The position numbers and the translations under genes were made by a program. Under the pieces are notes generated by a model. That model saw only the letters and a list, made by a program, of their open reading frames with translations, made no database searches and had not been told where the DNA came from. A stretch of 64,000 nt of DNA from Paracyclopina nana (lineage: Eukaryota > Arthropoda > Copepoda > Cyclopoida > Cyclopettidae): the NCBI GenBank assembly GCA_019096065.1, contig JAGUCH010000009.1:1870001-1934000 (forward strand), in the 5' to 3' direction. Each line of letters starts with the position of its first letter. Position 1 is the stretch's first letter. Positions 8,582 to 55,470 of this stretch are shown here, in pieces.

Positions 8582-10617
8582 CTTGAAATATACCCGACTC
8601 GATCAATGCAGTTTTTAGCTCTTGAATTTCTCGTCCAAAAACGCAACATTTCTCTAGCGTTCACGAAACCATTTCGCCTAGTTAAGTATGAAGGGGAAAC
8701 CTTAACCAGGTTACTTTATATATTTTTCGTTGACTTGATATGTACCTGCAAATTGTGTGAGCAAGCCTTGTTTGCATTTGTTTCATTGATATGAAGTCGT
8801 TCGGATTAATTTACTAAATGCAACTAATGAAAAAGCCGAGGCTTCGCTAAAACAGTTCATTAAAGCAGCTACATACCTTCAGGCGTTTCTTGACTATATA
8901 GTTGATGATATCTCTGATTTCTGAGGTCAATGAAGATTTTTTTGCATTCAAATGGAAAGCACTCACCGCCACAATTTGGTGTTTACTGCTTAGAGTTTAC
9001 CTTTTACGAGAGTTATCGTTTGGCTTCAGCGAAATGAGTCAAACTATTGCAGAAAGAGCCAAACGATTTGAGCGGAACATTGATGCAATATTTACAAATA
9101 TAGGACGCAGAGAAAGCGCAAACATGCCTCAGATTTGTTACTCTACAAGTCCTCGTTCACATTTAACTATCTACGTATGTGTCAAGTGTTTATCCTGAAT
9201 TCAAGAGCATAGCCTGTTTTTTTTTTGAATGGTCAGTTCGCAAGTACCATAAGTAAGGGAAATATCTAGAAAGCCTGGTAATTCGAGGGAAAATCATTTG
9301 AAAATAGGACCTAAAAAATGCCTTTTCTTAGAGATGTTTTTGAGAACCTTGCACATTTTTCATTTCCTCGCTGCGCTCGGGTCTCAAATTTTTCCCGACC
9401 TCTCAGGGATTTTTCTTGGGGCCTAACTTTTGCTGAGGCAGTAGTGAACTATTATGGTGTGTTTCTATATAGAGCATTACTGAGCATAAATGTGTCATTT
9501 GTAGAGTACAAGCTTCCTACTCTTTTTTTTGTTAATTGTGTTACTAAGTTAAGCCAAATATACAAATTTCGTTACTTTACCTTGAACATGACTAAAGTTC
9601 CAGATGACCTAATAGTAGGAATCTGCTTGTGAACATGGTCTTAAAACTGAGCTAGCGATAACATGTACATGCATGTCACTCTGGAAATTGAGACAAATGC
9701 CAAAATCAATGTTTCAGCAATTTATTGCGAAGCTGTAGCGTGATTAATTTCAGGCAATCTTCCTTGGCAACCATGGATCTCTCCTTGATGCTTCTACCTA
9801 AAACAACATTTACTTTCGTGAGAGCTACTAATTGCTGAGAAGACGTTACGTTTCCAAATAAGGAAGTACATTCATTATTTCCACTGAATATTTATCTATA
9901 GTAATATTGCAAGCAATACTTGCCTCAATAGATATTAATGCAGTCATAATTAAGCTTATAGGATTGGCAGACTTGCTGAGTAGGTGTAATATATTCATGA
10001 AACTATGCACATGACCAATTATTGTAAGCCAATTCAGGATGCTTCACTTGGAAGCGATATTTTTAAGGCTTATTTTTTGGCTCTTTGGTATAAATTAATA
10101 CGTTAGGAGATGTTTCAAGGAAGCTGATACCAGAGCGCCCTCTGTAGGCAGCTTTGAAAGCTTCGCAAGTTTTTGAGCGCGCGGCGCACTTGCTACCGCC
10201 AGTTCTTAAGTCCCTCACCACCAGACAAATAAAGCATAGTGTAGTATAGTATGCTATGTGCAGAGCAGAGAGAAGAAAGCTTTCATCTTGGTCGTCTCTG
10301 AGGCTGGTTAGCTCCAGCAGTGAGGCCGAGGCTGAGGCTGTCACCAGCAACTGACAACAGAACAGCTCCAATTTCAAATAAAAAGTGTTTAAGAAAACAG
10401 TTCTGCGAAGTGCTGTAGTATTATTGCACAAAAAGTAATTCTATTGGATATTTTTTGGCCTCATTGTGGCTTGTGAATTGAGAGAAAGCGTCCACTGGAA
10501 GGGAGGAAAAATAAGAAAAATCAAAGCATTCCTTTAACAGCAAAAAGCAACAAGTTTGATGTTAATAGTAATGTGCTTTTATTTCATACCTGGGTGATAC
10601 CAGCATCAATCACAGTG
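8582..10617. other. Intergenic region, no supported gene
   Basis: Several open frames of 70-120 codons occur (8902-9198, 9318-9632, 10063-10431 minus), but none has recognisable domains or a credible splice context. A good CTCF-like site lies at 10135-10148 in reverse orientation. AATAAA occurs at about 10228. Confidence 0.4.
10135..10148 (-). promoter_or_regulatory. CTCF-like motif
   Basis: The minus strand reads CCTACAGAGGGCGC, 12 of 14 positions matching the CTCF core CCRSYAGRKGGCRC. It lies between the secreted-peptide gene and the CNG channel gene. Confidence 0.45.
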
Positions 10618-10649
10618 ATGAACTCTGCTTCAGCAATGGACATCATTTG
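10618..10649 (+). other. Possible 5' UTR exon of the CNG channel gene
   Basis: A short ATG-containing segment ends at a strong donor (TTTG/gtaagt), and the CNG coding exon is preceded by a good acceptor (cctctttcag at 10785). Splicing them gives a ten-codon upstream frame that stops at the junction just before the channel ATG, so this would be untranslated leader with a short upstream ORF. Inference only. Confidence 0.3.
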
Positions 10650-10786
10650 GTAAGTCAATTTTTTGCCTGGAAATATATTGGAGTTTCTTTTGTCATGCAA
10701 GGTTTATATTGATTCATTTTTGTCGTGACTCCAAGAGAAATGAAAACCCTGAAGAGTAAAACTGAAGTTGATGTTCCTCTTTCAGA

Positions 10787-13700
10787 ATGGAAAAAGATGA
10801 TTTGTCAGCTAAGAAAACAGATTTGGCAGCAGCATTTTTAAGTTTACTAGCTTGCTTCAAGTCCTCAGGCGTAACCATGAATGGAAAAGTGGCGCCAAGA
10901 TCAGACTCTTCCACAGCAGTAAGATTTACAATTAAGGTTGCGTGAAAGTAATCCCTATGTTGCGCAACCAGTGCGCCATTTTAGAAGTAGTCTCATTTAA
11001 ATTGTGCCAGAATTGATCTTAATTTATGCTTCTATGCGAATAGGCCAAAAAAGAACCCAATTCTGCTGAAGAGGCTCCAGATGAGTCAGCAGGAGAAGAT
11101 TCCAATTCTCTCGGGCTAAGACATTTTATCGCCAGATTCCAATACGTGGCAGACAATGCTCGTAACGATCCCAATGCACCAGTGTACTTGCATGGCCTTT
11201 ACAAAGGCTACATGGCCTTTGACACCAGCCAAAAGTTCCACTACAGATGGTTATGTGTTATCAATTGCGCCGTCCTTTATAATCTCATTTTCGTGGTGGG
11301 CAGAGCTGTCTTTTGGGAGCTCGAAAATTTGTTCCCCATTGGCTGGTATGTCGTGGACTACACCTTTGACTTGGTCTACCTGATAGACATCTTCATACGA
11401 ATGCACGAAGGTAAGAAGAGTACATTTGAGCGTTAATTTCCATTAGCTCAGTATTATGGTAGTTTAAACCACTTGAATAGGGAATGTGTGCCACTCGAGG
11501 TACGAGATTATGCTTTCCTCAGCAAACCAATTTCACCTACTTCGCCACACACTAATCCCATGTACTTGTTTTAACTCTCTTTTAGGCTACCTTGAGCAGG
11601 GCTTGTTGGTGAAGGATCCAGTGAAACTAAGAAAGAACTATTGGAAGTCAAAATACGTTATTTTTGATGTGCTGAGCATTCTACCCACCGATTTGGCCTA
11701 CTTATTTTGGTCCACCAAGTGTTCTGAAATGGTGCCCTGCCCTGTCATTGTCAGGTTCAACAGGGTACTCAGATTTGACCGAATGGTCGAGTTTTTTGAG
11801 AAGACAGAGACAAGGACAAACTTTCCAAATGCCTTCAGGATCACTAGAGTCGTACTATACATTCTGGTGCTCATTCATTGGAATGCATGTGTATTCTTTG
11901 CCATCAGCTTTCTCATAGGATTCGAATCAGACACTTGGGTGTATCAGGTAAGCTGATAAATTGAATAAGAGTCACATTACATTCCTGCAATTTGCGTTAG
12001 AAACTTTCTTGGTTTTTTATTGCAAAGGCCAGTAGACCACCATGCATACCTATATGAAATTACCAAAGCCTTGAAGCAAAGTTGAGATTGCTTTTTCTCA
12101 TCAAAGGTTGTTTGTGCGTAGTCATGCCAACATGCATCATATTCCACTCCTATTTAGTGAAAAAAATGCTATGGCAGGTTTCATTTTCTAATGTATAATT
12201 AATTTCAGGGCTCAGAAAACTTGGCCACTCAATATATCTACAGTTTCTATTGGTCAACCTTAACTTTAACAACTATTGGGGAGACTCCACAACCTGTCAA
12301 GGATGTGGAGTACCTCTTTGTGACCATAGACTTCTTAATTGGTGTGCTGGTCTTTGCCACCATCGTGGGTAACATTGGCAGCATGATAACCAATATGAAT
12401 GCAGCCAAAGCTGAGTTCCAAAACCGAATGGATGCCATAAAGCAATATATGGTGTTCAGGAAAGTTGGCAAAGACCTCGAGAATCGAGTTATCAAATGGT
12501 TTGATTATTTGTGGTCCAACAAACAATCCATGGATGAAGAAAGTGTCCTTGGAATGCTGCCAGACAAACTCAAAGCCGAAATTGCAATTCACGTTCATTT
12601 AGGTGAGCTATATAGTTTCCTGCATAATATATCTGGCTGCGAATGATGGATGACATTGAGGCTCGATAACTGAATACTTAGGACTGAGAGCAGTGACTGA
12701 GAGCTGAGATTGAGGGATGAGACCTAGGACTGAGAGCTGAGACCCAAGACTGAGATCTAAGACAGAGCTGAGACTTAAGACTCAGAGCTGAGACTGAGAA
12801 CTGAGACTGAGAACTGAGACTGAGAACTGAGACTGAGAACTGAGACTGAGAACTGAGACTGAGAACTGAGAACTGAGAACTGAGACTGAGAACTGAGACT
12901 GAGAACTGAGACTGAGAACTGAGACTGAGAACTGAGACTGAGAACTGAGACTGAGAACTGAGACTGAGAACTGAGACTGAGAACTGAGACTGAGACTGAG
13001 AACTGAGACTGAGAACTGAGACTGAGAACTGAGACTGAGAACTGAGACTGAGAACTGAGACTGAGAACTGAGACTGAGAACTGAGACTGAGAACTGAGAC
13101 TGATTTCTGAGACTACTGAGCTGAGTGCTATGACTGAGGGCTGAGTGCTGTGACTGAGCGTTGAAACCTAGGACTGAGAGCTGAGACTTAAAACTGAGAT
13201 CACAGACAGAGCTGAGACTTCAGACTTATTGCTGAGACTGAGAATTTTGACTGAGAGCTGAGACAGAGAGCTTAAATACAAAGCTGAAACTGACAGTTGA
13301 GACTGAGAGCTGAAACTAATAGTTAAGACTGAAAGCGTCTCCTCTAATTTGTCACTGAAACTCCGTTTCCGGTGAAAATTATTACCGAAACTGAGACTAA
13401 TCCTTATTGATTTCTTATCAGATACGTTGAAGAAGGTGCGGATTTTCCAAGACTGCGAAAAAGGTCTCCTTGTGGATCTGGTGCTCAAGCTGAAGTTGCA
13501 GGTGTTTTCTCCCGGAGACTACGTTTGCCGAAAGGGTGATGTTGGTAAGGAAATGTACATCATTAAAAGGGGCAAATTGGATGTGGTAGCAGACGACGGA
13601 CAAACTGTATTTGTCACGCTGGCCGACGGGGCTGTATTTGGCGAGGTCAGCATTCTCAACATTCCTGGCAACAAAACTGGCAATCGCAGAACAGCCAACG

Positions 13701-14207
13701 TTCGAAGTGTGGGATATTCCGACCTTTTTTCACTGTCCAAAGATGACCTTTGGGATGCATTGACCGAGTATCCGGAAGCCAAGCAAAAGTAAGCTCACAT
13801 CTATTTTATACACTTACTGAGGAATCTACAGCTGCGGAAATGAAACAACCGGAAATGTAAACAAAAGGCGCATCGCTTTTGACACGTGGTCTCTATCTAC
13901 TTTGCAGCCTATTGGAGAAGGGCCGTCAAATTTTGATGAAAGACAATCTTATTGATGAGGAGAAAGCCAAACAAGAAGAAGCAGCTCAGGAGTCTTTAGA
14001 GCAGAAAATAGATCGTTTAGGTACCAAGAGTTTTTCAGCTCTAGGAAAAAGAATGATTTATTATATGTGATTTTGCTCTCTTTTTCAGAATTCACATTAG
14101 AGAACATGTCCTCTCGGTTTTCCCGCATGATTGCGGAATACTCCAGCTTCCAAGCAAAGGTGAAGCAGAGGCTGGCCAAATTAGAAGTGGATTCCATGCC
14201 TACCTAG
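10787..14207 (+). CDS. Cyclic-nucleotide-gated cation channel, alpha subunit (CNGA type)
   Basis: This is a plasma-membrane non-selective cation channel opened by cGMP or cAMP in sensory cells and neurons. Exons: 10787-10918, 11044-11410, 11586-11947, 12209-12602, 13422-13788, 13908-14020, 14089-14207; 617 aa, all phases consistent. Seen: S1 near residues 114-133; the CNGA signature [11 protein letters not shown] after S2; HWNACVFF in S5; the pore motif TIGETP at 309-314, the CNG-type filter rather than K+-type GYG; the C-linker with [11 protein letters not shown]-like sequence; the cNMP-binding domain at about 425-545 ([35 protein letters not shown]); and a C-terminal helix that fits the CNGA trimerising leucine zipper. 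The intracellular N-terminus is short. Intron 4 (12603-13421) contains a large 13-bp-unit minisatellite. The start at 10787 was chosen because a strong acceptor precedes it and stops lie upstream. Confidence 0.93.
12640..13340. repeat. Minisatellite, 13-bp unit (GAGACTGAGAACT)n, in a CNG channel intron
   Basis: About 700 bp of intron 4 is built from GAGACT and GAGAACT blocks. The core at about 12783-13110 is nearly perfect with a 13-bp composite period; the flanks are degenerate relatives (GAGAGCTGAGACT and similar). The strand is strongly purine-biased. Confidence 0.9.
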
Positions 14208-14417
14208 TGTGCTTTACAACTACTACAACAACATATCTATGATGGACCCAGAGATAAAATATATGACATTTCACAGATGGTTACCTTTTCGCAGTTGCCT
14301 TTTCACAGAATATTTGTGTATCCCGGCAATTCAATTTAGTTGAATGAGAATAGCAAAAAAATGAAGAAAAGCCGCATTTCCCAAACAGGGCTCAGACTTT
14401 CTTGAACATTCCCTTGT

Positions 14418-15428
14418 TCATAATAGGGATATTGCTGAAATGGTGTAAACTATAATGAAAGTGGCCAAGCTTAATGCTAAGAGAAAGCAACATGAAAACA
14501 CACACCGTCTCCGCTTTTTTCTCAGCTCAAATCGAGCAATTTGAGCCTGCTGAGCAGCAGTGACTCCGTCATTGATGAACATCTCAGACATGAGCACAAT
14601 GTTTTCAATTCGGTCCACAGTTTGTCCTTGGGCAGCGATCAAGTGTTGAATGTCGAAGAACAGGCCCTGCAGAATTTTCAGGCTTTGCTCCATGTTCAAG
14701 ATCATGGAATGGCGATTCTCAAGCTCAGTTAGGTCACGTGGAGAGAGGACCGAGTCTGGCAGCATCATGTAGTTCCCAGCTTCAATCATTGACTCCACCT
14801 TGGCCTCGCTGTAAGGGATGCCCTTGATCTCAACGAACCTTTTGATGCGGTCCTTCATCTCATACCTAGTATTATAAAGTAGCCATTTGCAATCCTCTTT
14901 CAATTATTATGCATATATTGCCATTTCTTTATACCTGAAGTGAGACTGGACCTTGGAAAACATTTCAACTGTCTCGCCATAGATCTGAGACAAGACCAAT
15001 TGCTGGGTCTTCTTGATCCGGAAATGCAGGGTGGCTTCCCTCTTTGGAAACTCCTTTTGGATCTCCTCACTCAGCAAATTGATGGATCTTCCGATGAGCC
15101 GTATCCTCCTCTGGATGTGATCCACCATCCTGTCCAGCTCCAGATGATCCGGGCCATTTGTGACTGGGCTGCTCAAGATCCTATCCTGGATTTCTGACAC
15201 GTCTCGAATGTCAGCTTGGCAAGCAATTATCATCAACCTGATATCTTGGACTTTATCCAGGAACTCTTGCAGAGGACAATAGAAGACCAAAGAGAGGAGT
15301 CCTTCTTCAAATTCTTCAAATATGCCCTGCTGCTGGTGGGACCTCAAAGTCTCCAGCCTATCTCTGACAAGACTGTGGTATTCGAAATTATCTGTGCTCG
15401 AATTTTGCCTGATGAGGCACTTGCTCAT
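14418..15428 (-). CDS. Divergent syntaxin-like Qa-SNARE, 313 aa
   Basis: Exons on the minus strand are 14935-15428 and 14418-14865 (donor CTTCAG/gtataa, acceptor actag); 313 aa. The first half is a helical Habc-type domain containing the syntaxin-like segment RIKKTQQLVLSQIYGE. The second half has the linker, a SNARE helix with the ionic-layer Gln (IAAQGQTVDRIENI), a basic RKKRRR juxtamembrane stretch and one C-terminal membrane anchor (residues about 288-313). Qa-SNAREs drive membrane fusion with SNAP-25 and VAMP partners. It sits in the same orientation just downstream of a second, more canonical syntaxin, so it looks like a diverged tandem duplicate. An acceptor-like cctcag at about 15450 suggests a 5' exon, so the true start could lie upstream. 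Which membrane it serves is unknown. Confidence 0.85.
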
Positions 15429-17231: not shown

Positions 17232-17235
17232 GATT

Positions 17236-20200
17236 CTGAAATTAATCAGTAATAATAGAGCATTAAGACCAAAAGTATGTGGAAAGCATCTTAAAGACAA
17301 AGTGGTGACGTGAGATGACAAGCAAGTGTCAAATTGACAATGACAAATACTAATGAGATGAATATCATCTGAGAAACTTTGTTGTCTTCCTATCAGATGA
17401 AAGATGGTAATTTTCCAGAGGACGCAAATTGATGCATCATTTAATGCAATATCCTACTATTGGATATTGAACATATCAATTGCAGATAAGTCCACAGGGA
17501 TTTTCTTTTTCGTCAGCTTTTTTTATAAAGGTAAGAACTTCCTAAGCCAAAGTGGGGAATTGCGTTAAATTTGGCACAGAGAAAGTTTTCACAGGTAAAG
17601 CCCAACGTGAAAGCACATGCAAGAAAAAGGAACGCTTTAATGTGATGCTAAAATCTTTGTGGGTGCTTTTAAAGTATTATAACAATCCTGAGCAGGAAAT
17701 GCTGGATTCAGGAAATGAAGTAAAAGAATTTGGAATTCAAGAAGGCTCCTGGGAAGAATTCAATTTGCAGCAGCCCTGCATAATTTCACACAATATTTGC
17801 GAGAAAAAATTCCAAATTCCTATTTTGTAAAATGGCATCAGAAAGCCGCGTTGAGATGAAGAAGAAGTGGTAAACTTTCCAGCGAGAAAACTTGGATAAG
17901 CAAGGGCTCATTTGAAAGGGCATAAACTAAAGTTTCATTACGAAAAATGAATACATCACAATAAAAGCCTTCAGGCATTAATATGCCCTAATGAGTTATG
18001 CCAACGCTAGAATGTAATTTCTAGTGGTAGCAACATCATAAATTCCTGATGAAATAGCTGGAAGGTGTGTTACAATGCTGTGATATGCAGTGTTTACTTA
18101 GCTACGAGACTTGCTCACTTGGACATGGAAAAATAGTGAGCCTACAAATGCAATTCTTCCCATATGCTCTATATAGTGTAAGTGTGTCAGGCAATCAAGG
18201 CTTTCTTTTTTACCTTCTTCTCTAAAAACAAACATGGACAGAAACGGCTGATTTTTTTGGTAGAACTCAAAGAGAAAACTGATCTCTCTTCTTTTGCCCA
18301 AGGGACTAATTCATCAATCATGCTACTGCTATTATGGCATAAATAATGAAGCATATCGCGTTACAAAATCCTTGGATATTGTCAAACTGAAGTAGCGATC
18401 AGTTGCCTGAGCGGAAATGCGATCTCTTTCAGACAGGAAATCAAGATCTAAAAATAGTACATACATTGTTCGAAAACTGAAACTTTCATCATATCTTATG
18501 CATGAGAGAGCCTTCTTTTTTCAAAGCTAAGACGGATGAGTGGAGATCATTTAGCGAGCTGAGAATTAAACCTACATTGTTCTCAAAATTGAGCTCCAAA
18601 TTTGCTGCTGACAATGGTAATTATGGTGAATGAGATCAGCACCAGCTATAAATCCCAATGAGAACTACAATTGGATCAATTATGCTTGTATTGAACCCAG
18701 GCAATCAAATGTCTCAGGATAGGATTTTACGTGACTTCTTGGCAGTTTTCTCAAAGCTTTCTCAAAAGTTGTGTGTGTCTGTGTGTTCAAAGAGGCAAAA
18801 AGGTTGGTTGAGCACAGCCAAAGATGTGCAGCTTGCATACTTTTTAGCAAAAAAAAAGATAAAAGAGAAAGCCTGATCTCTATTATTTCTAATTCGGCTC
18901 TAGAGATAGATCAAGATGTGGTCAGGATAATTGACAATGATGCCTGCGAATAATGCAATAATTTTCTATTAAACCTAGTGAAACCCTGGATTTTGTACCA
19001 ATTATTGGTTTGACATTTTCCTCAAGCCACTTCCCATGAGCCAATATGCAACTCAGCTAAAGCGTAGCATAAAAAGGGCAAGTTCCCAAATTAATCTAAA
19101 GGTGGCTGAAACCAGCTAAGTTCCTTAGCCACATAATTCCAGCCCAAGATGGGCCACAAAACCATCACGTGACTTGTGTATATCGATGAAATGAGTTACT
19201 TACCCTAAAAAGTTGGGTCAATATGGCAGACTTCTAAAATATGGGAAGAGAGGTCTCACACCAACTGAAAAACAGTCAAAGTCAGCACGGACAGTAGCAA
19301 CAGCAGCAGGGATTGAGCATTGAAAGTTTGGTTTATTTGCTGCTGAAAATAGCTGCAAGACTGAATTGGTACAGAGCTATGCACAGTGGGCGCAAGACCA
19401 TAGAAAGCGCCCTCCCATGCCAACTGCAAGGCTCTGCGACCTTCGAAACGAAAGCTTTGGCCAGGAACAGCAGACAAACCGACTAGCTCGGTCGTTTAGC
19501 TTTTACACTGCAACAAAGCTGGAATCGCCGCATTTAATGATTTTTTCTCAGGTTTCGCATCCTCAAAACAAATTCTACTATTCTTTTTTTTAATTTTTGG
19601 GAGGAAAAGCTGGTTTACTTCTATAGCTATTATTTATAGTACAGTTGAATGCCATATCTTTAGCGTTATTCCAGACTGAAGAATTCGTACAGTGAATACC
19701 ATGTAACTGGTCGTGTCCTTTCTAGGCAGCCTTGTGGCCTTCATAAGGGAGGGTGGGGTAGATGCGCGCGCACTTTTCACAACTCTTGACAAGATTTAGC
19801 ACTACTTATCTACTGTATCATCTTCATTTCATGACTGATCCACGGATACTATTGAAAGGCCTAATTGGCCACATCTCAACTTAATTGGGTAACTGAGTCT
19901 ACATCGGAATTGGTGAGCTTATTAGCAGCATATTCAGGGATAATTGGAAACTCGCTAAGTATAGCATATCAAGTGCAATTGTCGTATCCTTCAAATAGTA
20001 CCAGTCTTAATACAACTTCACTGATGCTTTGATTTTTACCCTAGTCAACACAATAAAATTGAGTCACGGCAACAGCGCCACCTATCGGCAAAGTGGCCCA
20101 AAAAAGAAACAATACGCGAATAAAAGCTTTTGTTTTGGTTGGTAAACAGTATAAGTTAAAAAACCAACACTACTTTAATCTTTATTGCTATTTTTTCATG

Positions 20201-22544: not shown

Positions 22545-25500
22545 ATGTTCTTACTCATAGTGTCTGTGCTCTTTCTATGGTAAGACCCGCTTTAATTACT
22601 TTTTCAGCTGAATTAGCCTTGAACCCGAAAGTTCTCATCTCGAATGTGTTGAGGTGATAAAAAGTGAAGCATAATTTAATGTTAACTACTTTCCGTATGA
22701 ATTTTGCTTCCTCCACATTTGCCAATGAAATTTTGATTTTTGCAAAGCCACTGAAAAAATTGGCCAAAGTCATTTTATTTGGTAATTCTCAGTTTGGTAT
22801 GTTTACAGTGTCAGGAAAGAAAGTTGAATGGTATATACATAAAGAGGAAAAGTTTGGCCGCAACTTTTCGCCAACTTTTCCCTTCCCAACCTAGTTACAC
22901 ATAATGGGTATGTTATTATAGAGCTATATGGTATACACCATAAAGTAATTGGCAGTACTACCAATTTTCCTTTTGTTATACCAGCATCTTGATGAGTCAG
23001 CTCTATTTATGTAGGGTATATTATTGGTCATAGCAGATGTATACACCTCAATGGTGGCCGGTATGTGATTAATATAAAAATAATATTCCCTCAAAAAAGA
23101 GCCGCCATTCATTCTTCGTTGGAACTGAATTTCCTGCTTCGGTGGTTCCTTATTAAAAAGAGATAGCCTGCAGGCAGACTTTGAGCATGTATGACATTTA
23201 CGAAAAAAGGCAGGATGAATGATGACTTGTTGTAGCATATACCAGGATGCCTATACGAAAAAGATACCTCATCTTTACCATGTTTTAGGGGCTCGACATC
23301 TTCCAGGGGAGCCAATGGTGCAAGTGCTGAGGAGAGAGCTAATTCTCTGGAAAATGTGACCAAAACTATTGGAAATTTGCTAGATGGTTATGACATTAGG
23401 CTCCGTCCCAACTTTGGAGGTACTTAAAAAATAACCACCCTTAGCAGCCTGGAAATAACCTTTTCTTCTCGCCAGGGGATCCACTGTACGTAGGATTCGA
23501 TCTCACCATTGCCAGTTTTGACAGTATTTCTGAAGTCAGTATGGTAAGTCAAATAATGCCCTGCTCATTAATTAAGGCTTTCTGATAGAAGAACAGCCAA
23601 TTTTAGCCAGTTTAACACACACTTTTTTGCTTAATTTGAGCCAACTTTGTGATTCCAGAAGATTCTACTTCACTTAAGAGCAAATTTGACTTGTTTTTCG
23701 CAAACTATCAGCCATACTGCCCAGCTGAGCGTAGTCCACATTTTTGGCCTGCTTACTTCAATATCCTAATAGTTTAATGAAATTCCTTGCAGGATTACAC
23801 CATAACCATGTACTTGAACCAATACTGGAAGGATGAGAGGCTCTCCTTCAGTCCTGAAGAGGACAAAGTGCTCACCTTATCCGGAGACTTTGCTGAAAAG
23901 ATCTGGGTGCCAGACACATTTTTTGCAAATGACAAAAACAGGCAAGCTGCTGCTGCTGCTGGAAAAGGCCTCCCAAATGTAGCTAGGGTGCATTATTTTA
24001 AAAGCTTTTTTTCTGTTCCAGCTTTCTTCACGATGTAACAGAGCAAAACAAAATGGTTCGCCTCCACGGTGATGGTGCCATCACTTATGGCATGAGGTTC
24101 ACAACCACTTTGGCATGCATGATGGACTTACATTATTATCCGCTCGACTCACAAAATTGTACCGTGGAAATAGAAAGCTGTGAGTTGTAGTTTTAGTCAT
24201 ATTTCCCAACTGCAATACATCCTGGCGAAAAAAAGCACGAGCAAAAGTTGCAGATAGTCAGTATCAATGTCATATACCAACAAGCTAGGGAGGAAAGCTT
24301 TTCTTTGTCAGAATGCATTTCGACGATTAAAGCCCGACGAAGCTCGTGCTAAAGCTGCAATAAAGCCAATTACTTTTTTGAGGGGGAAGCATAAGCTGAG
24401 AAGGAATATTTTCTCCTTGGGAAAAATTCCAGACTAAACGGCCAATTGAAGGCACAAGACGTGGGCCGCTGAATATTAAGATTAGCTTAAATATTGTATC
24501 AAAAAAGTACCATAAATATTGCGAGCTGTCAGGTTGGCCGAGTGGTCTAAGGCGTCAGATTTAAGCTCTGATACTCTCACGAGTGCGTGGGTTCGAACCC
24601 CACACCTGACATTTAAAATTTCTTTTTTCAGATGGCTACACAGTGTCTGATGTTGTAATGTACTGGCGAGAGGAACCAGTGGTTGGTGTGGACAAGGCTG
24701 AGCTTCCGCAATTCACTATTGTAGGTTGGGAGACTAATGAGAGGAAAATCAAACTTGCAACTGGTAAGCAAAACTCTTGCTTTTGTTTCAAGTTGCAAGG
24801 CAAGTCTGCTAGCTAGGAAAACTTTAGCCCTAGAGGTATTCAGAGAAGGAAAACATTTTATCCAGGTCAAAAGCACTCAGAAAATGGTGACCTAATTTGC
24901 TTCTTTTCAGGCACATACCAAAGATTGTCCCTCTCCTTCAAACTACAAAGAAACATTGGCTATTTCGTATTTCAAACATATCTTCCATCGATTCTGATCG
25001 TGATGCTTTCTTGGGTTTCATTCTGGATCAACCACGAGGCCACAAGTGCTAGGGTGGCTTTAGGTAAGTTTTTTAGGTATTACCCTAACATATAGAAGAC
25101 TCTTGACGGCGCAGCAAAGCGTGCACGGCCCTACATTTTAATACGCGGTACCTCATTTAGTGTTGCATGGCGTTGCACGGCGTTGCATGGCGCTGCACGG
25201 CGCTGCACGGCGCTGCACGGCGCTGCACGGCGTTGCACGGCGCTGCACGGCGCTGAAGGTGCTAAACGGCGAAACATGGCGTTTTATACTTAGCTGCTCA
25301 GAACTGTATTTCTTTAATTACGAAACTTCTGAACATTGCAGCTGGAGCTAAAATCCTATATTGTGCTTGGCTTAATAGCTTTTAAATTGATGATTTTCTG
25401 TCGCAGGCATCACAACCGTGTTAACCATGACAACCATCAGCACTGGTGTCCGCTCGTCATTGCCTCGGATCTCGTATGTAAAGGCCATTGACATCTACTT

Positions 25501-28482: not shown

Positions 28483-29456
28483 AGTTCACTCCGCTTCTGA
28501 TCTCTTCCTCCTCTGAATTATTTATTATTTGTGGTATTCTAATTGAATTAGTTTTATGGGCGTTGGTTTTCCGTCTCTTTGTTTACATTCGCCAGTTCCG
28601 CGAAATTATCAGGGGTCAGGCAGCACCATTGCAATGAACACTTCGAATTTGCGGAAAATCACATGATTGTTTTCAAATGAATAATGAACAGAAATTCAAC
28701 TAGGTAAGAGTGGCTTTAAACATCATGATGACTTCACTGCGTTGAGCACGAAGCATTATGGAAAAGAGAAGAACTATTAACTTATGCCGTCTTTTTCCAG
28801 ATTGCACTCTTTCAAAGTAGTGAAGAATCGAAATTCTATGTCGAGCCAAGCTTACATGAAGTATTCTTCATTTAAGTATTATTATTATTTATTTTATATC
28901 AATAAATTATTAATTTAAAATTAAATTTGCGAGCATTCGATATAGATATTGAAAGATAAATCATGTCAAGTGTCAACTAAATATAGATCAATGATTGAGT
29001 AGCAAGCCTGAAAAAGTTTGCTTCTCATTCTTTTTTGGAAAAAGCTTGGATTTGCACAACTCTGCACTCAATGTCAGTCCACCTAGCGGGCATTTTTAAC
29101 AATGCCACGCTATGAGTCATGGAATGTCAATCATCCTCTGCCTCTTGGTGCGTTAGTTCACACTGGGCTTCACTCTACCTTTTCCATTATGAAAGGTTGA
29201 ACGAATCAGGCATATTAATCCTCGGCGCGTATTTGAAGGTAGTTTTATGAGAAATGTTTTGATAGTTGGAGAACATGCATCTACTATTTTACAGTCATCG
29301 TTACACTAAAAACCAAAGTCATAGGTATTTTCAATTTTCATATATGGGGTGAATATTGCCATCATAGATGCAACCTATAATAGCTGAATATGAGGCCGTT
29401 AGTCAATAGCTTACCAGTCTCAAGCGCTCAGTTAGCATAGAGCTGTTGAGGTTACT
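28483..29456. other. Intergenic, divergent SLAIN (-) and orphan 7TM (+) promoters
   Basis: AT-rich and without a supported gene. A weak CTCF-like site occurs at 29076-29089 (11 of 14 positions on the minus strand). TCAGTT at 29428-29433 is an initiator candidate 29 bp before the 7TM ATG. Confidence 0.35.
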
Positions 29457-33864: not shown

Positions 33865-33926
33865 AATTGGTTCAAATCTAGGCCTGGAACTGAAATTGTA
33901 AATAGCAATTTTATTTCAACATTGCC

Positions 33927-38927: not shown

Positions 38928-38941
38928 GTGCCATCTAGCGG
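38928..38941 (-). promoter_or_regulatory. CTCF-like motif
   Basis: The minus strand reads CCGCTAGATGGCAC, matching all 14 positions of CCRSYAGRKGGCRC. Confidence 0.55.
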
Positions 38942-39612
38942 TCAGTTCTTGCAACTTTAATAGAGTGTTGCAAGTTTCCAAAAAGCCCTTTAGTAGCCCA
39001 AGTTTTGCAAATAAATATTTAGTAGCAGAATTGTCCTTTTTGAAATTGAGTTGGACCAGGGCGTGCTCGTGCACGCAATTTCTAGCCTTGCAACTGCCGC
39101 AGACAGCTATGTAGTACTACAGCAGCAGTAGCGTAAGTTCACTTATTGTAGTTCAGTGTAGTTGTGCCAGGTGCTTCTATCACAAAACATTCAGCTGCCA
39201 CTGTTCGCTGTTCAAAACAGGACATCATACGTGAAACTGAACTCATAGGGTAAGCAGCCGGCTAACGTAGCATTCTTTGTTGTTGGATCCAGCTCATTTT
39301 TTTAATTGGAGGTTAAATTTGTTTATCTCGTAATTACGAGAGTAAAATGGCATTAAATTTTTAGAGTGGCCCATAAATACACATCTGTATACCGACTAAG
39401 CTTGTGAATTTTGTGCATTAAAGGTGCTGACCCGACTTCAAGAGTCCCTGGGAGAGCAAACGAATCGGCGGCCTCCGAGGCCGGCTAGAAAGCCTTGTGC
39501 TAAAGCGGCGGCCTCCACTGACTTTACGAGGCGCTCCAGCTTGTTCAGCCCCTGCAATAACTGCTGGGACAGTCGCAACTCAGTGTCAGTTGGAATTGTG
39601 CAAATCTGGGCT

Positions 39613-39626
39613 GCGCCACCTAGCGT
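39613..39626 (-). promoter_or_regulatory. CTCF-like motif near the ELMOD2 start
   Basis: The minus strand reads ACGCTAGGTGGCGC, 13 of 14 positions. It lies 76 bp before the ELMOD2 ATG, a promoter-proximal position. Confidence 0.55.
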
Positions 39627-39701
39627 GGAACTAGTTAACGGACCACTCGCCGCCCCGCGAAAATTCAAACGGACTAAAATGCTCAAGTAGTGCGCCACAC
39701 C

Positions 39702-42700
39702 ATGGATTTTGTGCAGAATATCCTCCATTGGCTGCTGTGGTATTTTAGGCCAGTCATCAAGTGGTTTCTTAGGCAAACCACTCGACTGTGCGAGCTTCAA
39801 CGCATTTGCTATGGAGAAGCCCCTGGAGCCCACAGAACCTGTGCTGTTGGTAATTTCCTATTTTTCCCCCATTTTATTTTTGTGATTTTCTTTATTTAAA
39901 AAAAAATCTTTAGAAAATTCGCTGGTGCAGAGCCGGAGCCCACGCATCTTAGAGGCCTTGGAAGTCATGTATAAAGAGGCATTGGAAGCCCAGAAAAGTG
40001 ACCAGAAAAAATCCTCGGATGCCTCCGTCCTGATCACGACAGCTGACGAGGATAGCACAAAGCAAGAGGAGCTAGCTACTGATCGGATGGTTATTGATTC
40101 TGCCATCAATGTCATCCTCCATGTCAAGAAAATCAAGAGGGACCTGCATATTCAGTAAGTGCCCACCAAAAAATATTCCAATTCCTGTGGGACAATCTGC
40201 ATGGCGTATTTATTCTGTCAATGCCTGTCATTGATCTTTTGCTCTGGTTTTCGGCCTCTGTTTGCTCCAATTTACTGGCATTTGTAATGAAAAGCTAACA
40301 TTTAGGGTTTTAGGCAGTGCTAAAGATAGCTTTTTTCAGCCAATTTCCTATTTGCAGTTGTTGCAGCACAGCTTTCAAAGCTTTTCCAAGCTCTCTTGGG
40401 AGCTTCCAAACTTTTGACTCTAGGTAGAAAAGAGATGGAAGCTTCAACTTTGCTACAAAAGCTGTTTCATGCTACAACACATCACTCTATTCAATATTGC
40501 AAGAACCAGAGAAACTTTATTGTAGCAACTTTACGCATAAAGTTCGCCATTGACGTCATTTCCTTCGAGTGCGATCTTTGTGATAGCTTTTTCAGTACTG
40601 CAGTAAGGCGTTTTCTTGAGAGCGCCACCTAGCGGCAAAAAAATTAATTGAAGAAGAGAATTTTGTACATGGGCTGATATGTCGTGCAATGTTGAAAACC
40701 AGTTTGATATTGCTTTGCGGATATTTTATTGCACATTACATATACTTATATGGCGGCAAAAAATGCTTTCGAATTATTCTACCGATTTATCGGAGAAAGG
40801 ACGGATTGCAGAAATTCAGCGAATCGATCAAAATCTTTTACTAACTGTAACCGGTTCCACTCGCGAGTATAGCCGGTTACAGTTAGTAAAATACAAGCAA
40901 TAGAATATTCTATCTTGAAGTTAGGTTATTGTCCTTGCTTGTCATTATTACACTTGAGATCTTGGTCATGAAGATGATGATGAAGATGTGCGTGACCTTG
41001 CAGCTGTAATTACACATATATGCATATGTTCCCCACATAGTACTGCTATCTGTCAAAAATAGAACAGCCATTTGATGCATTGGCTATTGCATCGAAAAAA
41101 ATGTTCAGCCTAGAAAAAATCCAATTTCTACAGAAATTGGAAAGCAATCGGTTTTTAGCTCTGTTGGCCATTTGTTGGGGGGAAACAAATGCTCCCTTGG
41201 GATTACACATCTTGGGCCTTGACCACGTGGAAGGAGAAAAATGATACTCCTCTGTACATAAACTAGCAGTATTCCAGGTCAAATGAAACCGCAATACTAC
41301 ATTTGGCCTTGTAGCAGGATACTTCTTCTCCGATAATGGAGTGAGTCTAAATATGTACCATCGAAACTGACCGCAATTTGTGCTGTCGTTAATAGGAAAA
41401 GGATAATCATTTCGTGCTGTCATGGCCGAACAATACGAGCGTTACGTAATCACCCACGTGGGCCTTTTTCCAATTGCAGATTCGTCCATTCTTTGGATGC
41501 TTGTTTGCGTCAAATGTGCGGCTACAAATTGCTGGTATCCGAGGTGGAGCAGCTCCGCTCCATACCCTACGACTCTGAGAATCTCCAGCATGAGCAGATG
41601 CTCCTCCAGCTCTGGAGCTACCTTCAGCCGGGCATCCCACTTTTGACGCGAAAAACCAAGCAATGGCAAAATATCGGCTTCCAAGGGGACGACCCCAAAA
41701 CTGACTTCAGAGGCATGGGAATCCTCGGCCTCCAAAACCTTTTGTAAGTTTCACTCCTACATATATTGCTAGTTAAGGGGGCTTTTATGTCCTGTTCATG
41801 TACGCCCCAAACTCCTTAGGAAAATGCACGAAAAACACCTCAAGGAAAGGAGAAAAATTGTCGTATGACAAGCGCCAGCTGATACTAAAAAATCAGATCG
41901 ACTTTAAGCCAACTTGAAAGTAAACAAATCTAATTTTGGCTCTAAAGTGCTCCACATTTTAGTCCTTTTGAGGAAAATCACAAGATAAATTTCAACGTGT
42001 ATAAAAGAAACATGATGTAATATAGTTTGTGTTGAAATATGCTGAAAACCATGAGACAAAATAGCAAAAATTGCCATTAAAAACGCTGCTCGGCCCCAAG
42101 CTGAACTTGAAGAGCGGCAGTTAGCAACAGATTCACTTTTCCTTATGACAATTTTTTCCATACCTTGAGGCATTCTTAATACATGAACAGGGCATTAGAC
42201 CAGTACTGTACCAGAGTATAATTTGCATATAAATTTGGCAGGCCTATAGTGGCCTACTTCTGCCTGGGCAGAGTTACTATGTACAGTAAAAGGCAATTGT
42301 GAAGAAAATGGGCCCTAAAAAGGGAGGCTTTTTCTAAGGCTGGTCCAACTTACAAAATGAAGTTTTTTGTACGCGTATGTGTACTACTAATTGCTATCCT
42401 ATATATCACAATTTTTCAAAGCGTGGTCACGACAACAGCAGCAGGAGTAGCAGCCGTGCCAGTCATATATAAATAAGGAAAACTTCCTGCCCTTAATGGG
42501 GCCATGATTGTGAAAGCCCTGAGTATTACTAGCAAGCTTTGTGTTCAACTTGTAGTGCTAATGAACAGGAGCAGCAAACTGCTTGCAGACTTATAAGAGC
42601 CTTGATTTTATGCTGTATACCAAGTTGGTGGGAAATTAGCTCAGAAAACATTATAATACACATTTTTTGGATTTGCACTGCTAATTTGCTCGTTTCTTCC

Positions 42701-48909: not shown

Positions 48910-51731
48910 ACTGCAAAGACGGAAAATTAGCCAGTTATGTACTAATTCTTTGTTGGATTCTTACAGTTAAATATATAAATATAGTGTACAGCTCTAGATA
49001 TTATCCAATTTTGACTGCTGCTGAGGAAGATCATTATTATGAGCAATGAGGATTTTGGTTGACGTGCGCGTTGCTTAGTTGATGCGACCACGGTCGATTT
49101 CAGCATGATAAATTCGCTAGCAAGGTCTAGCTTTAAAATAAGCTGTTTTGAATGAAGCGTGGAAATTGATGCACGCTTTTTTTCTGCGATCTTTTGAAAC
49201 GGATGCCTGAAATCGACCCACGTTGCGTATTGTTCCTTTTTTCCAAGAAAAATGCAAAATATGCGTCTCAACTTCACAGCTATATAGAAAAAGCAATAAA
49301 ATTGCTAAAATCTTTGCCTGCTCGAAATAATCAATGGAATACTGCAATGAAGAAGAACAAGGTTTTTTTTTGGTGTACCCCACCACAGCAAAAAGGATGT
49401 GTATTTATCTTTGAGTTTTGACGAACAGTTATTGTCTTAATTTGCTCGCACGTGGGAAGTCAAAAACAAAGAGCGCAAGAACAGGGTGCAACACAATCAA
49501 CAAAAAGCTGCCATAACTTTAAGCACCAAATACCACTCTTGTGAACAAAGGAAGCGCAGAAGTCACACTGTGCACGTAAATAACGCTGTTACGCTTTATA
49601 TACATTACGTAACGTAGGCTAGTTGAATTTTTCAGCCTTTTCACGGACTTGACATCAATTGCAATAAAAGCATTTAGCTCCGGGTCGGCCAAGAATCCCG
49701 GATCCAGGATCAAAATTTCGTTCACTATTTATTACTGATTTGAAAATAGCAGCGCAATTTCTCTTTCAGGAAATAAAGCTAGCTTCTGATAAGGCAAAAA
49801 TATGGAAATGTTCTTCAAGTTTTGTTAAGGTCACCTGATATTGGGGAGTTGTGCTCGAATTTGATTCCTAGTGAACGATCCCACAACCAAATAACGACTG
49901 ACTCAAGGGTCATAGAATTCTTGGCAAATCAGCTTTGATGACGTGCTTACTTAATAAGTGCGTACGTTTTTACGACTAATGAGACGAGCAAGATCAAGTA
50001 ACACTTTAGGCTGGTTCATCTGAAAAAAGCATGATTAGCTAGCTAGCAGTTGTAATTCTACATATTGATTCAAGTATAGGATCAGCATATTAGCGAGACA
50101 AAACAGATGAACTAATCCCTGGATTTTCTGCATTCAAAGCTATTTATTGAAAATTGCTAAGGCATTCAATTTTCAGATATCCTCACGCTATTCAAGCAAG
50201 GCATACCTGATGATGAGCCTTGTTACGCACTTTTCAGGCACCAGGTGGCGCTACTTGTTTCTTAGGCTGCCCAATCAGCCCACGGCCGTGTAGCCTGCAC
50301 TAGATGGAAATGATCAGCTGCTGAAAAAGTACACCCCTGCTATACGGCACCGAAATGAAAATAGTCCCAAACTAAAATGGACCATACACAGGCTGAGTCC
50401 ATCTAAAGTATTTACTAGCAATCCAACTGCCAGAATTTGAGCTCAAGTGGTCGTCGTTTCGTTACTTGGCTAAAGAGTCAAGCCGATGCAAATACTGAGC
50501 TTAGGTTTCTAACTTCCTAAAGAGCAAATTAGAAAGAAGATCTTAGGAAATTAGCCAGTTTTGTGACTTTTAAGCATCTTTTAATGTTCATGAATGAACA
50601 ATTGACACCCCGAAAAAAATTTTAATTGCCGCTTTACAAGTTCAAGTTTGACGATTTTTTGATGACCAAGCCAAAAAATGTGAAAAGTGCCAAGATGCGA
50701 TATGTTTATTGTGGCATCAGATTTCAATAATCACATGGCTTCATTACGTAATTAGTTATTGTAATTAGGGGGACAAGTGGGCAAAGCTTGAAAATATCGC
50801 TTAGGGGAAAAGCCATTTATGAAGTATTTGCTCAAAAATTTCCTTTAGCAGATCTTCAACAAAAGAGATTCATAAAGACTAAAATATCCGAGTCGACAAA
50901 TATCCGAGAAGATTTCTCTTCCAAGGTTATGATTATTGGCAAAAGTTCAAAAAACTCCGCAAAATCTGATGATGAATCTCTTTTTTCCAGACAAAGTCTC
51001 AAATCTACTTCTATTCGGAAAGGTAAAATTGATTTTTCATCGTCTCCGCATTAAATCAATTGCTTTTGTATTCACTTCATAAGAGCCCAAAAAATTAATA
51101 ATCACAAACTTAGTTAATTTACTACCTAATCTGAACAGTTCATTCTTTTGTCAGTCTTTTTGCAAAGAAAAAGCTTGATGTTTCTCAGCTGTAATATTGT
51201 AATTTAGGTTAAACTGTTAAATGTAATTTTAAATAAAGAGCCTTGAATTAAAGACGTATATGCAAATTCCTCAGTTTCAACTATCAGAACAAATTCTTAA
51301 ATCGAGTGACATAACACTTTTTTGAATTGCCTGAAAAATTCAAGTTCACGCAATAATTTTCAAGGCGTTATGTCACTGCTCTTCAGTGCAATTAGCCTTC
51401 GTATTCGGCCTTAGGAACTACACATCAACAGCAATTTCGATGAAGAATGCAAATGTGCTTGTAATCTGTTGATAACTGTAATGTTGGCAAAAAAGACACA
51501 CTCAGAGAGTTTTAAGAATTCGGTAACTCAGCAGCTTCCAATCTCACATCAAGGTTAAATAAAAACTCAACAATTCCTACCTTTTTTCGTCACATCCAAT
51601 CGGCTCTTAGAAAAAAAACAACTAGACAAGTTGACTCTCTTTGTTTTTATTTACATCCATCTAATGACACAGCGTTATCAGTACGCAATAAGCAGAAAAA
51701 GAGCCAAAGGCACTTGACAACCGCCTCAAAC
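48910..51731. other. 2.8-kb stretch without a supported gene
   Basis: AT-rich. An excellent CTCF-like site lies at 50239-50252. A plus-strand open frame at 50788-51054 (Ser/Lys-rich, 88 codons, no ATG) followed by AATAAA near 51230 could be a terminal exon but has no partner exons. A minus-strand frame 49519-49725 starts with MNEILILDPGFLADPELNAF and also lacks support. TTTATT near 51645 may be the FAM47-like gene's poly(A) signal. Confidence 0.35.
50239..50252 (+). promoter_or_regulatory. CTCF-like motif
   Basis: The plus strand reads GCACCAGGTGGCGC, 13 of 14 positions matching CCRSYAGRKGGCRC. Intergenic. Confidence 0.55.
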
Positions 51732-54700
51732 TCACAATAGCAGTGCTTTTTTCAGAAATGGCGGAGGTTCATAATTTGGCCTTGCTTCCAAAAATTCACT
51801 GAAAGCTCTAATCGAGTGCAATTGGTCTTGTGAATCTTCCTCAACCGAAGCTGGTTCATTTTTAGCTGCTCGGTGCTGAAAAAAGAAACCCAATTACATC
51901 ACTAAGCAAAGAAGAACAAGAGCATAAATCTGGTAGTGCTTTCTTAAAGCACTGACCACGCTGCTGACGTCATCATGAACATGTTGATACATTGAGTGAC
52001 GTCACTAAGTCTATGTATGGTAAGGAAGTTAGAAAGGCGATTCCTGCATTACTACACAGAAGTTGATGCCATTGGATTACAGAGCTTTTTTAGGCATTAA
52101 GTAGATTCTCTCAATAAGATATGATGGAGCTCATCATCATGAGAAGAAGAGAGGAATGAGTGTCAGAAAAGTTTTTCAATGTATCATGCTATCTCAGACA
52201 ACTTCCATAGCACACAAAAGTAAAGTAAACTTACAGCTTGGAGAGCAGCTGCTTCAGCTACTTCTTCTGTTATTGTCTCATGTTTGCTGATGGTGTCACT
52301 TGAAATTCCTCGTCTCCTGGCTTTGAGTTTGGCAATTTCTTTGGAATCACTGACTTGATGAAACCTTTGCTCCCAACGGCTGGGTTTCAAATACCACACG
52401 CCATATTGTCTGTGGTCCAATTTCACCAAAGATGCATCTTCACCTATGAAAGAGAAAGCCTTATCTCCTATTTGCAGGGATGTTTCCAAAATTACTCAGT
52501 ACATAGCAGTACGTAGGCGGAAAGAAATCGAAGTAATTAGGTCGCTGCTTTCAACTTTGGGGAAAACTATTTTTAGGCCAGATTGGCGTCATTTTTGCCA
52601 GAAAGGATTTTTTTACCTTGATTTATTGAATGGCTTCCATTTGCCTTTCTTCTGTTGCGCTTCTTTATTTTGACAGCCTCAGCAAATTTGGTTTTCACTT
52701 TGTTTTTTGAGATCTCTTGCCTTGCAATGGATGCCAAATCGTTGCCTCCAGTTCCTGCAAATTCCGACCCGAATTTAGCCCTACATAGGAAAGAAAAGAG
52801 GGAAAAGCCTGAAACTTGCGAGCAAATATATACACTACACGAGCTAATTTGAGCTACATATCATACTACTTTGTCAATTACTTTTTGCAATGTACAACTA
52901 CTGCTTACTATTCACAAAAAAGGCTGGATACATGCATATAAAATGTACCCAAATCGAGACACTCCTAAAGTACAAAGTTGCCAATTAATCCTGAAAAATG
53001 CGTTTTATTTATAGAAGCTTGCCAACTTTTGGATTGAAATTACCAGGATCTGAGGCCTTCCACCACTTTCGATTTGGTTGGTCTTGAGTTGTGCGTGGAA
53101 TCGAAAAGGGACCGAATTTTGTCTGGTGATGTGTTGTTGACAGTCTGGTCTTCACCTAATGGCAGCTCTCTTAGCCAGTTACAAAAGTCCCCAGTGATCT
53201 GTAATTTAATCAGGCAAATGTTATGCACGAGTTTACGTGCCCCACCCTCAAATGTACCCTAGTTTTTTTCTATCCTACGCAATAAATTATAGTAGAAGCC
53301 AAAAAAAAAACCTTTGAAACTTGTTCTTCAGATTTTCTCGTCAATTTGTCATCTCCTTTGGCAATGCTTGCCAAGGCAGCAGCAGCTCTGCCTGATTTTG
53401 AAGGGCCAACAATTTCGTCGATTTCCTGCTGTTGTTTCTCAATATGATTGTCTGAGGTTGAATTTCTGAAGAGGACGCGCAAGCGAGACGAAGCTTGCGG
53501 CTCGTACTCTTCACTCGTCTGAACTGCTGTTGCATTTGCAGCTGCTGGTGACGAGTTGTTGGCAGCCATTGTGGTCCCGAAGGCCAGCCAAGACTTGAGG
53601 CCGCTCTTCACTCCCGAAGTGATCTCATCAAGGTCATCTGTATCCTAATTGACAAATACATATAGAATGAATAACACCATTAGGGAAGGTCAAGAGCCTT
53701 GCTTACCTTAAATGTTTATGAGGACAAGCTGTTGTCTATTCTACAGCCTCTTAAGAAGGAGCAATTTTTTTTGGAAAAAGATATCTGCTTATAAAGTAAT
53801 TTTTGAATAAGCTTTTCATCATTATTTGTTGGATTGCATGCATTGCATTCCACAGATAATGGAACTTTCAAGCAATTTTGAGTTGCTTTTTGCTTTGACA
53901 TTCTGAAATGGAATTGACTCATGGACTATGGTTTTTTCTACTAGATCTTTTTCAGGTCAGAATTCAGGCCTTTCATGATTACTTAAAACAGCCCTTTTTG
54001 CGCAATTACTTGGCCTAAGCCCAATTATAAAAGAGTAGGTGAGCGGGGCCAGACTTACCAAGTTGTCCAATTTGAACAGGAAATGCTCGAAGGCGTCCTC
54101 TAAATCGTCCAAGTCGATGCTTTCTTCAGAGGAGTCGAATACTTCGTCCTCGTCAGAGAGCTCGTTTTCGTGATGGGAAGAGCACTCGGCTGACTCCTTA
54201 ATTACGGAGGTTATGATGGAGGTCTTTTTGGGGCCTCGAGAGAGGCCGTTTCGCTTTTTAAAGGGTGCACCTCGTTTGGCTGGCACAGCACATTCCAGCT
54301 GCCTTGCCACTTCTTTTTCCAGGTCCAAAGGAAGGTCAGCTCGTGTAAGCACCTTGCCCTTGAGTGTACCCTACATAAAATACAAACTGAGAAATGTAAG
54401 GATACAGATGAATACAGCGGTATTTAGTTTCACCGTGATGCCAGATTTGATGGAGCGGCCAACCAGGATTTTCTTGACCATTTCTTTGAAGGAGATTTGA
54501 ACTTGGCCGTTATCCGCATAAATACAGCCATTGTCGAGCACAATCGTCCACTTTTTGTGCGGCAATTTCCTGCTCCCAAATCTCTCTTGATGCCTACATA
54601 TGTGGAAAACTGCTATTGGCGGGGACGACCTCGAAAATCTGATTGAAACTCACCAAGGGAAATCTTGAGTGGGAGAAAATATGGACGTGTTGGAATATGG

Positions 54701-54741
54701 GAAAATACACCGTTCATCTGCTGCGGACGCCATTTTGACAT
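51732..54741 (-). CDS. FAM47-like protein, 518 aa (8 exons)
   Basis: Exons on the minus strand: 54654-54741, 54434-54585, 54059-54370, 53312-53644, 53044-53198, 52617-52780, 52235-52443, 51732-51875; all phases agree. An upstream in-frame ATG at 54798 would add 19 residues. The C-terminal half resembles the FAM47 family as I remember it: DFCNWLRELPLGEDQ, then LFDSTHNSRPTKSKVVEGL, WAKFGSEFAG, the YGVWYLKPSRWEQR block, and a final FSEFLEARPNYEPPPFLKK. The N-terminal half (GCIYADNGQVQISFKEMVKK, LTRADLPLDLEKEVARQLE, and an acidic DEDEVFDSSEESIDLDDLED stretch) I do not recognise. No signal peptide or membrane segments. The acceptor of exon 2 (atcaag) was chosen to keep the long frame and is the weakest junction. 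Confidence 0.6.
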
Positions 54742-55417
54742 AACTCTTAGGAACCAAATATTGACTAAACAATCAACTTTCAGCGAGAGCTCTTCCATCT
54801 AGGAGCAATTTTTGCGCCAACCTTCGCGGTTTTTTTAAATAACCTGAACAAGGGATGAAAGTGAAAATTTGGTATATTTCCTCCAAATATAATGATAGTA
54901 ATATTAATAATGATGATAATTATAAAGGCGGCAATTGCGATGTTTATGACGACGACGAGTTTTAAGTGTAGAGAAATTAGAGAGCATGAGTAGCGGATGA
55001 CAAATTGAACAAATACAATGTGGCAACGAAATTGAGAAATTGCAATATTTAACGTTACTTTAATGGCATAATGTAATAGATGGTAAGTATTTTTCGATAG
55101 TACTGTCATTTACTGACACATTTATTGATGAAAAACAGCAACCAAAAAACGACCAACCAAAGAGGATTCGTGAAAGAATTTGTTTGTAGATGTTGTTGTA
55201 GTTTATCACAATGTGGCTGTTTGATGCAAAAATGTAGATTATATTTTATATGTATTGTATGAACATTTAAAAGTTTGAATGCTGCACCAGAACGACGACG
55301 TACATCCAGAAAGTAGTACTGCTACATGTAAATAGAAGTACAAGCTGTTTGATTGAGCAATAAAAGAGCTGCAGAAAGTGAACGAAAAAATTGCGTAGTC
55401 GTGGGCACACAGCTTTG

Positions 55418-55431
55418 CCGGCAGGTGGCGC
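55418..55431 (+). promoter_or_regulatory. CTCF-like motif, forward member of a facing pair
   Basis: CCGGCAGGTGGCGC matches all 14 positions of CCRSYAGRKGGCRC. Confidence 0.6.
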
Positions 55432-55456
55432 TGCACTTACACACAACAGGCAAAAG

Positions 55457-55470
55457 GCGCCACCTGGCGG
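55457..55470 (-). promoter_or_regulatory. CTCF-like motif, reverse member of a facing pair
   Basis: The minus strand reads CCGCCAGGTGGCGC, a full 14-position match, 25 bp beyond its forward partner. Confidence 0.6.

Follow-up and report, generated by a model that had tools for sequence, protein, structure and literature searches.

Introduction

Words of the CCRSYAGRKGGCRC type are the known 14-bp core of CTCF binding sites. CTCF itself is known across panarthropods and is reported from 105 species in the available text of PMC5094011, where the origin of CP190 is inferred to lie in Pancrustacea. The genome described here resembles the vertebrate system of CTCF sites and loop anchors in its core word, the 11 fingers, the YDF motif before the fingers and the pocket residues of cohesin SA, whereas it differs in that neighbouring strict sites lack a convergent bias, and may differ in the preference for an upstream TG.C at positions −11 to −8. 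With the insulator sites of Drosophila dCTCF it shares an arthropod CTCF carrying a YxF motif and the absence of an orientation rule. The annelid Dimorphilus gyrociliatus likewise combines a small genome and a CTCF orthologue with a frequent, undirected motif; however, according to the portion of PMC7854359 at hand, the motifs there mostly stand singly at promoters, unlike some close pairs and clusters seen here. A review (PMC10003631, in its accessible part) notes that species in which CTCF has no part in forming loops, e.g., Drosophila and Anopheles, still keep the motif, and considers it unsettled by what route and at what time CTCF began to interact with loop-extruding complexes. In sea star and sea urchin, the orientation of boundary motifs matches that of shuffles, as far as the available text of PMC13317027 goes.

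Predicted CTCF-type sites in the window

The window, meaning the whole 64-kb stretch of DNA analysed (C9:1870001-1934000), belongs to a genome of 92 Mb on ten contigs. All eight sites that a preliminary description had listed at 12–14 of the 14 core positions are found, with one start corrected from 50239 to 50238 (Table 1). Scored with a 36-bp matrix, which was built from 75 sites (one per in-register flank family and none from the window), eight sites exceed 16 bits, comprising seven of those listed before and 59396, which had been overlooked. Three weaker sites of the same description do not stand out: 45914 reaches 7.3 bits and 29076 5.5 bits, near noise, and 1137 is not among the 22 best. 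The four sites from 20075 to 40622 lie on the minus strand, 50238 and 55418 on the plus strand, and 55457 and 59396 again on the minus strand; the starts of the facing sites 55418 and 55457 are 39 bp apart.

Table 1. Predicted CTCF-type sites and recognizable genes of the window (mismatches are to the core word CCRSYAGRKGGCRC)
Feature	Position	Strand	Mismatches	Score (bits)	Remarks
Weak CTCF-type site	10135..10148	-	2	12.5	Flank part 2.1
Predicted CTCF-type site	20075..20088	-	1	23.7	Unique in genome
Predicted CTCF-type site	38928..38941	-	0	24.0	Strict match; unique in genome
Predicted CTCF-type site	39613..39626	-	1	18.0	Within an open frame; unique in genome
Predicted CTCF-type site	40622..40635	-	0	28.6	Strict match; unique in genome
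Predicted CTCF-type site	50238..50251	+	1	20.8	Flanks compared with window and fetched loci
Predicted CTCF-type site	55418..55431	+	0	26.3	Strict match; unique in genome; faces 55457
Predicted CTCF-type site	55457..55470	-	0	29.7	Strict match; top score in window; unique in genome
Predicted CTCF-type site	59396..59409	-	2	20.1	Flank part 7.96; flanks compared with window and fetched loci
Ionotropic glutamate receptor gene	window				Pfam match
Channel gene, ion-transport and cyclic-nucleotide-binding domains	window				Pfam match
Syntaxin gene	window				Pfam match
Ligand-gated ion channel gene	window				Pfam match
SLAIN gene	window				Pfam match
C-type lectin gene	window				Pfam match
EamA transporter gene	window			28.0	Pfam, below cut-off 28.2
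Glucosamine-6-phosphate isomerase-type gene	window				Pfam match
ELMO gene	window				Pfam match
Endonuclease/exonuclease/phosphatase gene	window				Pfam match
N-terminal glutamine amidase gene	window				Pfam match

Enrichment over chance

At up to two mismatches the window holds 20 sites, against a mean of 5.57 (sd 2.04, largest 12) in 100 dinucleotide shuffles of the window, and CCGCTAGGTGGCGC at up to three mismatches occurs 12 times against a shuffle mean of 1.32. The excess over chance claimed in the preliminary description is borne out by these numbers, and the genome-wide count against a control, which it had proposed as a check, points the same way, with 529 occurrences of the strict word and three of its reversed control. 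In addition, CCGSCAGGTGGCGC is present 68 times, on all ten contigs, with none for its control. Sites at up to one mismatch number 2457 against 490 for the control, a count that may be slightly low, with the strict places C1:17391914 and C2:2869933 missing from its list. The commonest word, CCGCTAGATGGCGC, makes up 20 of 83 fetched strict sites, and a 14-mer with the same dinucleotides (a permutation control) has zero occurrences genome-wide. The match to the CTCF core thus exceeds chance in both the window and the genome.

If the sites were chance matches and the window had been picked because it contains them, this would agree with a Poisson expectation of about 0.8 windows of 64-kb size with four strict sites, and the three weak sites are compatible with such matches. 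The shuffles, the genome controls and the held-out flanks (see below) oppose this explanation, to which we assign a negligible probability; for the main sites as a group, chance is refuted.

A motif extending beyond the core

The fetched material consists of 80 stretches with 83 of 100 listed strict sites, i.e., all 59 of C1 and 24 in the first 4.2 Mb of C2; the remaining 429 of the 529 strict sites are known mainly as a count, with some places listed. Together with the four strict sites of the window, the 83 prefer T at −11, G at −10, C at −8, T at −3, G at 0, T at 15 and C at 17. This sequence preference past the core is what is expected of a many-fingered protein.

Above 16 bits, the matrix picks out eight sites in the window, a single one in the 190-kb sample of C1 and zero in 30 shuffles. 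The non-core flanks of these eight average +3.08, compared to −2.65 (sd 2.88) at random window positions, and none of 100,000 resamplings of eight random window positions reaches that mean, which is nevertheless inflated, particularly for 59396, since the flanks contribute to the score on which the eight were selected. The seven sites picked by their core have flank scores of 4.37, 1.63, −1.12, 2.05, 3.50, 2.86 and 3.40, in order of position; six of them lie more than 1 sd above the random mean, and 39613 (−1.12) does not.

Flanks and repeats

The flanks of the window sites differ from one another, as first described. Genome searches with queries over 20075, 38928, 39613, 40622, 55418 and 55457 return the self-match only, so that these six of the eight sites stand in sequence that occurs once in the genome, and the flanks of 50238 and 59396 have no match but themselves among the window and the fetched loci. 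The flank of 55418 has one short partial match, of 37 bases at 81%, to the fetched locus L094. Homologous flanks around the copies, as in a transposon-borne motif, are therefore not found for the sites of the window, six of them searched against the genome and two against the window and the fetched loci.

The preliminary description had also considered that the word rides on a dispersed element; this is not borne out for the window in these searches and holds for a minority elsewhere, where 11 of the 83 outside sites share in-register flanks in three families of five, four and two sites. A looser criterion yields 40 pairs and draws in more loci (L031, L036, L062, L069, L071, L072, L082, L094, L096 and L097), some of these pairs being overlaps within one locus or out of register. 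The largest family, in which the motif sits 27 bases inside the common block, is part of a dispersed repeat. Of the 474 first-look candidates for this repeat, 40 were scored, and 40 of its 41 listed matches are at 90% or more.

These families, the looser pairs and the dispersed repeat are what would be seen if the word were carried around chiefly by mobile or tandem repeats, with most copies not used. Against this, six of the eight window sites are unique, related flanks are absent from most fetched sites, and among the 19 copies of the dispersed repeat listed for C1 and for the first 14.36 Mb of C2, five coincide with a strict site, so that most of those copies lack the strict word. We consider spread as a passenger highly improbable.

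Density, clustering and orientation

Dense use of CTCF insulation, as considered before, is not supported for this genome: strict sites average 5.8 per Mb genome-wide, the window is a local cluster, and neighbouring sites are oriented at random (see below). At up to one mismatch, the window contains nine sites and 190 kb of C1 (19 stretches of 10 kb) only one, a contrast that is somewhat overstated because the strict sites of C1 (59 in 17.8 Mb) fall below the genome average. Poisson statistics on the genome counts predict about 0.1 windows of 64-kb size with nine such sites; with the 190-kb sample as the source of the rate, such a window becomes far less probable, although this rate is based on a single event. 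The cluster is noteworthy without being exceptional, the window having been chosen because it was outstanding.

Clustering is also seen among the listed strict sites, with 17 neighbour pairs closer than 50 kb on C1 against 8.8 expected (p 0.0008) and ten on C2 against 5.4 expected (p 0.024). By 1-Mb bins, the first three of C1 contain 14 strict sites, the last three 26 and the intervening twelve 19; C2, listed to 14.36 of its 17.54 Mb, has 21 in the first three. Clusters are present at C4 1.21-1.27 Mb and C8 5.01-5.06 Mb and, within the window, at 38928-40622 and 55418/55457.

The orientation of neighbours is random. Among 76 pairs of strict sites less than 500 kb apart, 41 are tandem, 16 convergent and 19 divergent, i.e., the convergent arrangement of vertebrate-type loop anchors is not favoured between such neighbours. 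The lack of bias fits the non-vertebrate pattern (fly, mosquito, sea star, sea urchin and annelid). It would also suit a CTCF that does not insulate at the sites it binds here but acts close to promoters or in chromatin accessibility; in the compact annelid genome, CTCF motifs are described in the available part of PMC7854359 as mostly single, at promoters and undirected. The paired and clustered sites named above speak against such a role, which we hold to be a serious possibility that falls short of even odds.

Exons and genes around the sites

Exon blocks backed by homology or codon use make up 27.5% of the window, and the eight matrix sites, as well as 10135, lie outside them. The preliminary description had placed all sites outside exons, which stands for these blocks but does not amount to significant avoidance, since with so small a share covered, zero of eight inside exons has P = 0.076 by chance. 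Moreover, 39613 lies within an open frame of 139 amino acids (39441-39857, minus strand) and may be in an exon. The frame has no Pfam match and a weak codon score of 0.039; a neighbouring frame (39886-40155) scores 0.182, and for the 23 backed exons the codon score identifies the true frame 19 times. Beyond the genes of Table 1, we read a second syntaxin-like gene and GPCR-like frames at 29436 and 63055, for which there is no Pfam match. Across the genome, 80 Chitin_bind_4 matches mark an arthropod and speak against a nematode, a reading that we rejected; Col_cuticle_N gives zero matches, and its controls are likewise silent.

The CTCF protein and cohesin SA

A genome search with fingers 4–10 of human CTCF gives one outstanding match (C3:4997191-4997760, 53% identity, E 2.8e-45). 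The next-best has 36% identity and E 1.6e-26, and the listed matches over nearly the whole query reach at most 38%, so by these similarity scores CTCF is the best match and separate from the other zinc-finger genes of the genome. The gene model is a prediction, with exon joins picked by hand among GT-AG candidates; it has seven exons, separated by five introns of 38–69 bases and one of 449 bases, and encodes 633 residues with 11 C2H2 fingers. A CTCF orthologue, for which the preliminary description had advised a search, is thereby found with the full number of fingers. The predicted protein aligns to human CTCF (7w1m_H) with E 3.7e-116, from the YDF stretch through the fingers, which follow in the order of the known protein.

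The stretches TSGELVRH of finger 3 and SKLKRH of finger 4 are common to this protein and human CTCF, finger 5 also has KLKRH in common but P for R in SRDT, and fingers 6 and 7 keep FTQS and RK.DL. Ahead of the fingers, the stretch GVYDFENE (SVYDFEEE in human) contains a putative YxF motif for contact with cohesin. A cohesin SA gene is also present, one exon of which aligns to human SA-1 and SA-2. Compared with 7zjs_A (5-143 on 258-396, equal length), Y297, L329, W334, L366 and F367 are identical, provided that the chain index of 7zjs_A is the residue number. These five residues are named in PMC10279526, in the part available, as the pocket of SA2 for the SGO1 peptide, an interface that CTCF also uses.

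A zinc-finger protein other than CTCF might in principle read the word, as the genome is rich in C2H2 genes: the query has 186 matches, the majority of them on C5 near 6.9-7.6 Mb. However, the word is that of the CTCF core, the helices of predicted fingers 3–5 are nearly human, and the similarity of every other match is far below that of the CTCF match. A different reader is accordingly very unlikely.

Discussion

The dispersed words are very probably binding sites of the genome's own CTCF, a prediction that follows from the enrichment, the extended motif, the CTCF orthologue, the SA residues and the unique sites of the window. Of the three outcomes that the preliminary description had named as refuting (a count equal to the control, shared transposable-element flanks around all copies, no CTCF orthologue), none was observed within the reach of these searches. 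In the mechanism that we propose, this arthropod's CTCF would recognise the word as the core of its binding site. The central fingers, with nearly human helices, would read the 14-bp core, and other fingers would read the extra bases at −11 to −8, −3, 0, +15 and +17. Between the genes of the window, bound CTCF would most likely mark accessible non-coding elements or the boundaries of local chromatin, and may be able to contact cohesin through the YDF motif. The sites with their enrichment and extended motif, the CTCF gene, its YDF motif and the residues on the cohesin side are computational results; occupancy in cells, the assignment of fingers to bases, cohesin pausing and insulation are inferred from sequence. 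We put the probability of this explanation as a whole (CTCF sites that are most likely boundaries or accessible non-coding elements) at roughly 0.85, having counted against it the random orientation of neighbours, the repeat-borne sites elsewhere, the negative flank of 39613 and the non-significant avoidance of exons. For boundary function taken by itself, the odds are about even.

A more specific proposal is that CTCF marks a few clustered boundary regions (the window and the clusters on C4 and C8), where its YDF motif stops cohesin whatever the order of the sites. Such cohesin-dependent, orientation-free insulation is speculative and rather unlikely; if true, it would be unlike the vertebrate scheme and stronger than that of the fly.

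The predicted sites are of a known kind, and we do not claim that they are absent from the literature for this species. With an ordinary eleven-finger CTCF in a small arthropod genome, they extend a known system in a sound but expected way, and the finding alone confirms what would be expected for an arthropod. Its wider use lies in the question of how CTCF became linked to loop extruders, for which an arthropod genome of 92 Mb that encodes a standard CTCF with its YDF motif intact, and whose sites are well defined and clustered, would offer a cheap test by CUT&Tag and Hi-C.

CTCF words and associated repeats

In some copies of a dispersed repeat the CTCF word stands intact, 27 bases inside the block that the copies share. 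A first look at the 92-Mb genome yielded 474 candidates for this repeat. Of the 19 copies listed for contig C1 and the first 14.36 Mb of C2, five coincide with a match to the strict 14-bp CTCF core pattern. Among the strict sites listed by place, the words are concentrated at both ends of C1 and at the start of C2. Strong words also occur in face-to-face pairs (see table).

Features of the window and of the wider genome (bare coordinates are window positions; L numbers denote stretches around strict sites outside the window)
Feature	Location	Detail
Dispersed repeat with CTCF word	L041, L043, L047, L052, L059	contig C1
Face-to-face pair, strong CTCF words	window 55418-55470	starts 39 bp apart
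Face-to-face pair, strong CTCF words	genome, C4:1231544-1231629	starts 72 bp apart
Tandem array, 10-bp unit TGCACGGCGC	25164-25255	9 copies
Tandem array, 13-bp unit GACTGAGAACTGA	12682-13336	about 46-51 copies

Tandem arrays and zinc-finger matches

In the channel gene, the GACTGAGAACTGA array separates the ion-transport exon from the one for cyclic-nucleotide binding; in the ligand-gated ion channel gene, the TGCACGGCGC array has an exon on either side. Contig C5 has dozens of close-set C2H2 zinc-finger matches towards one of its ends (6.88-7.61 Mb of 7.65 Mb), an arrangement resembling an expanded gene array.
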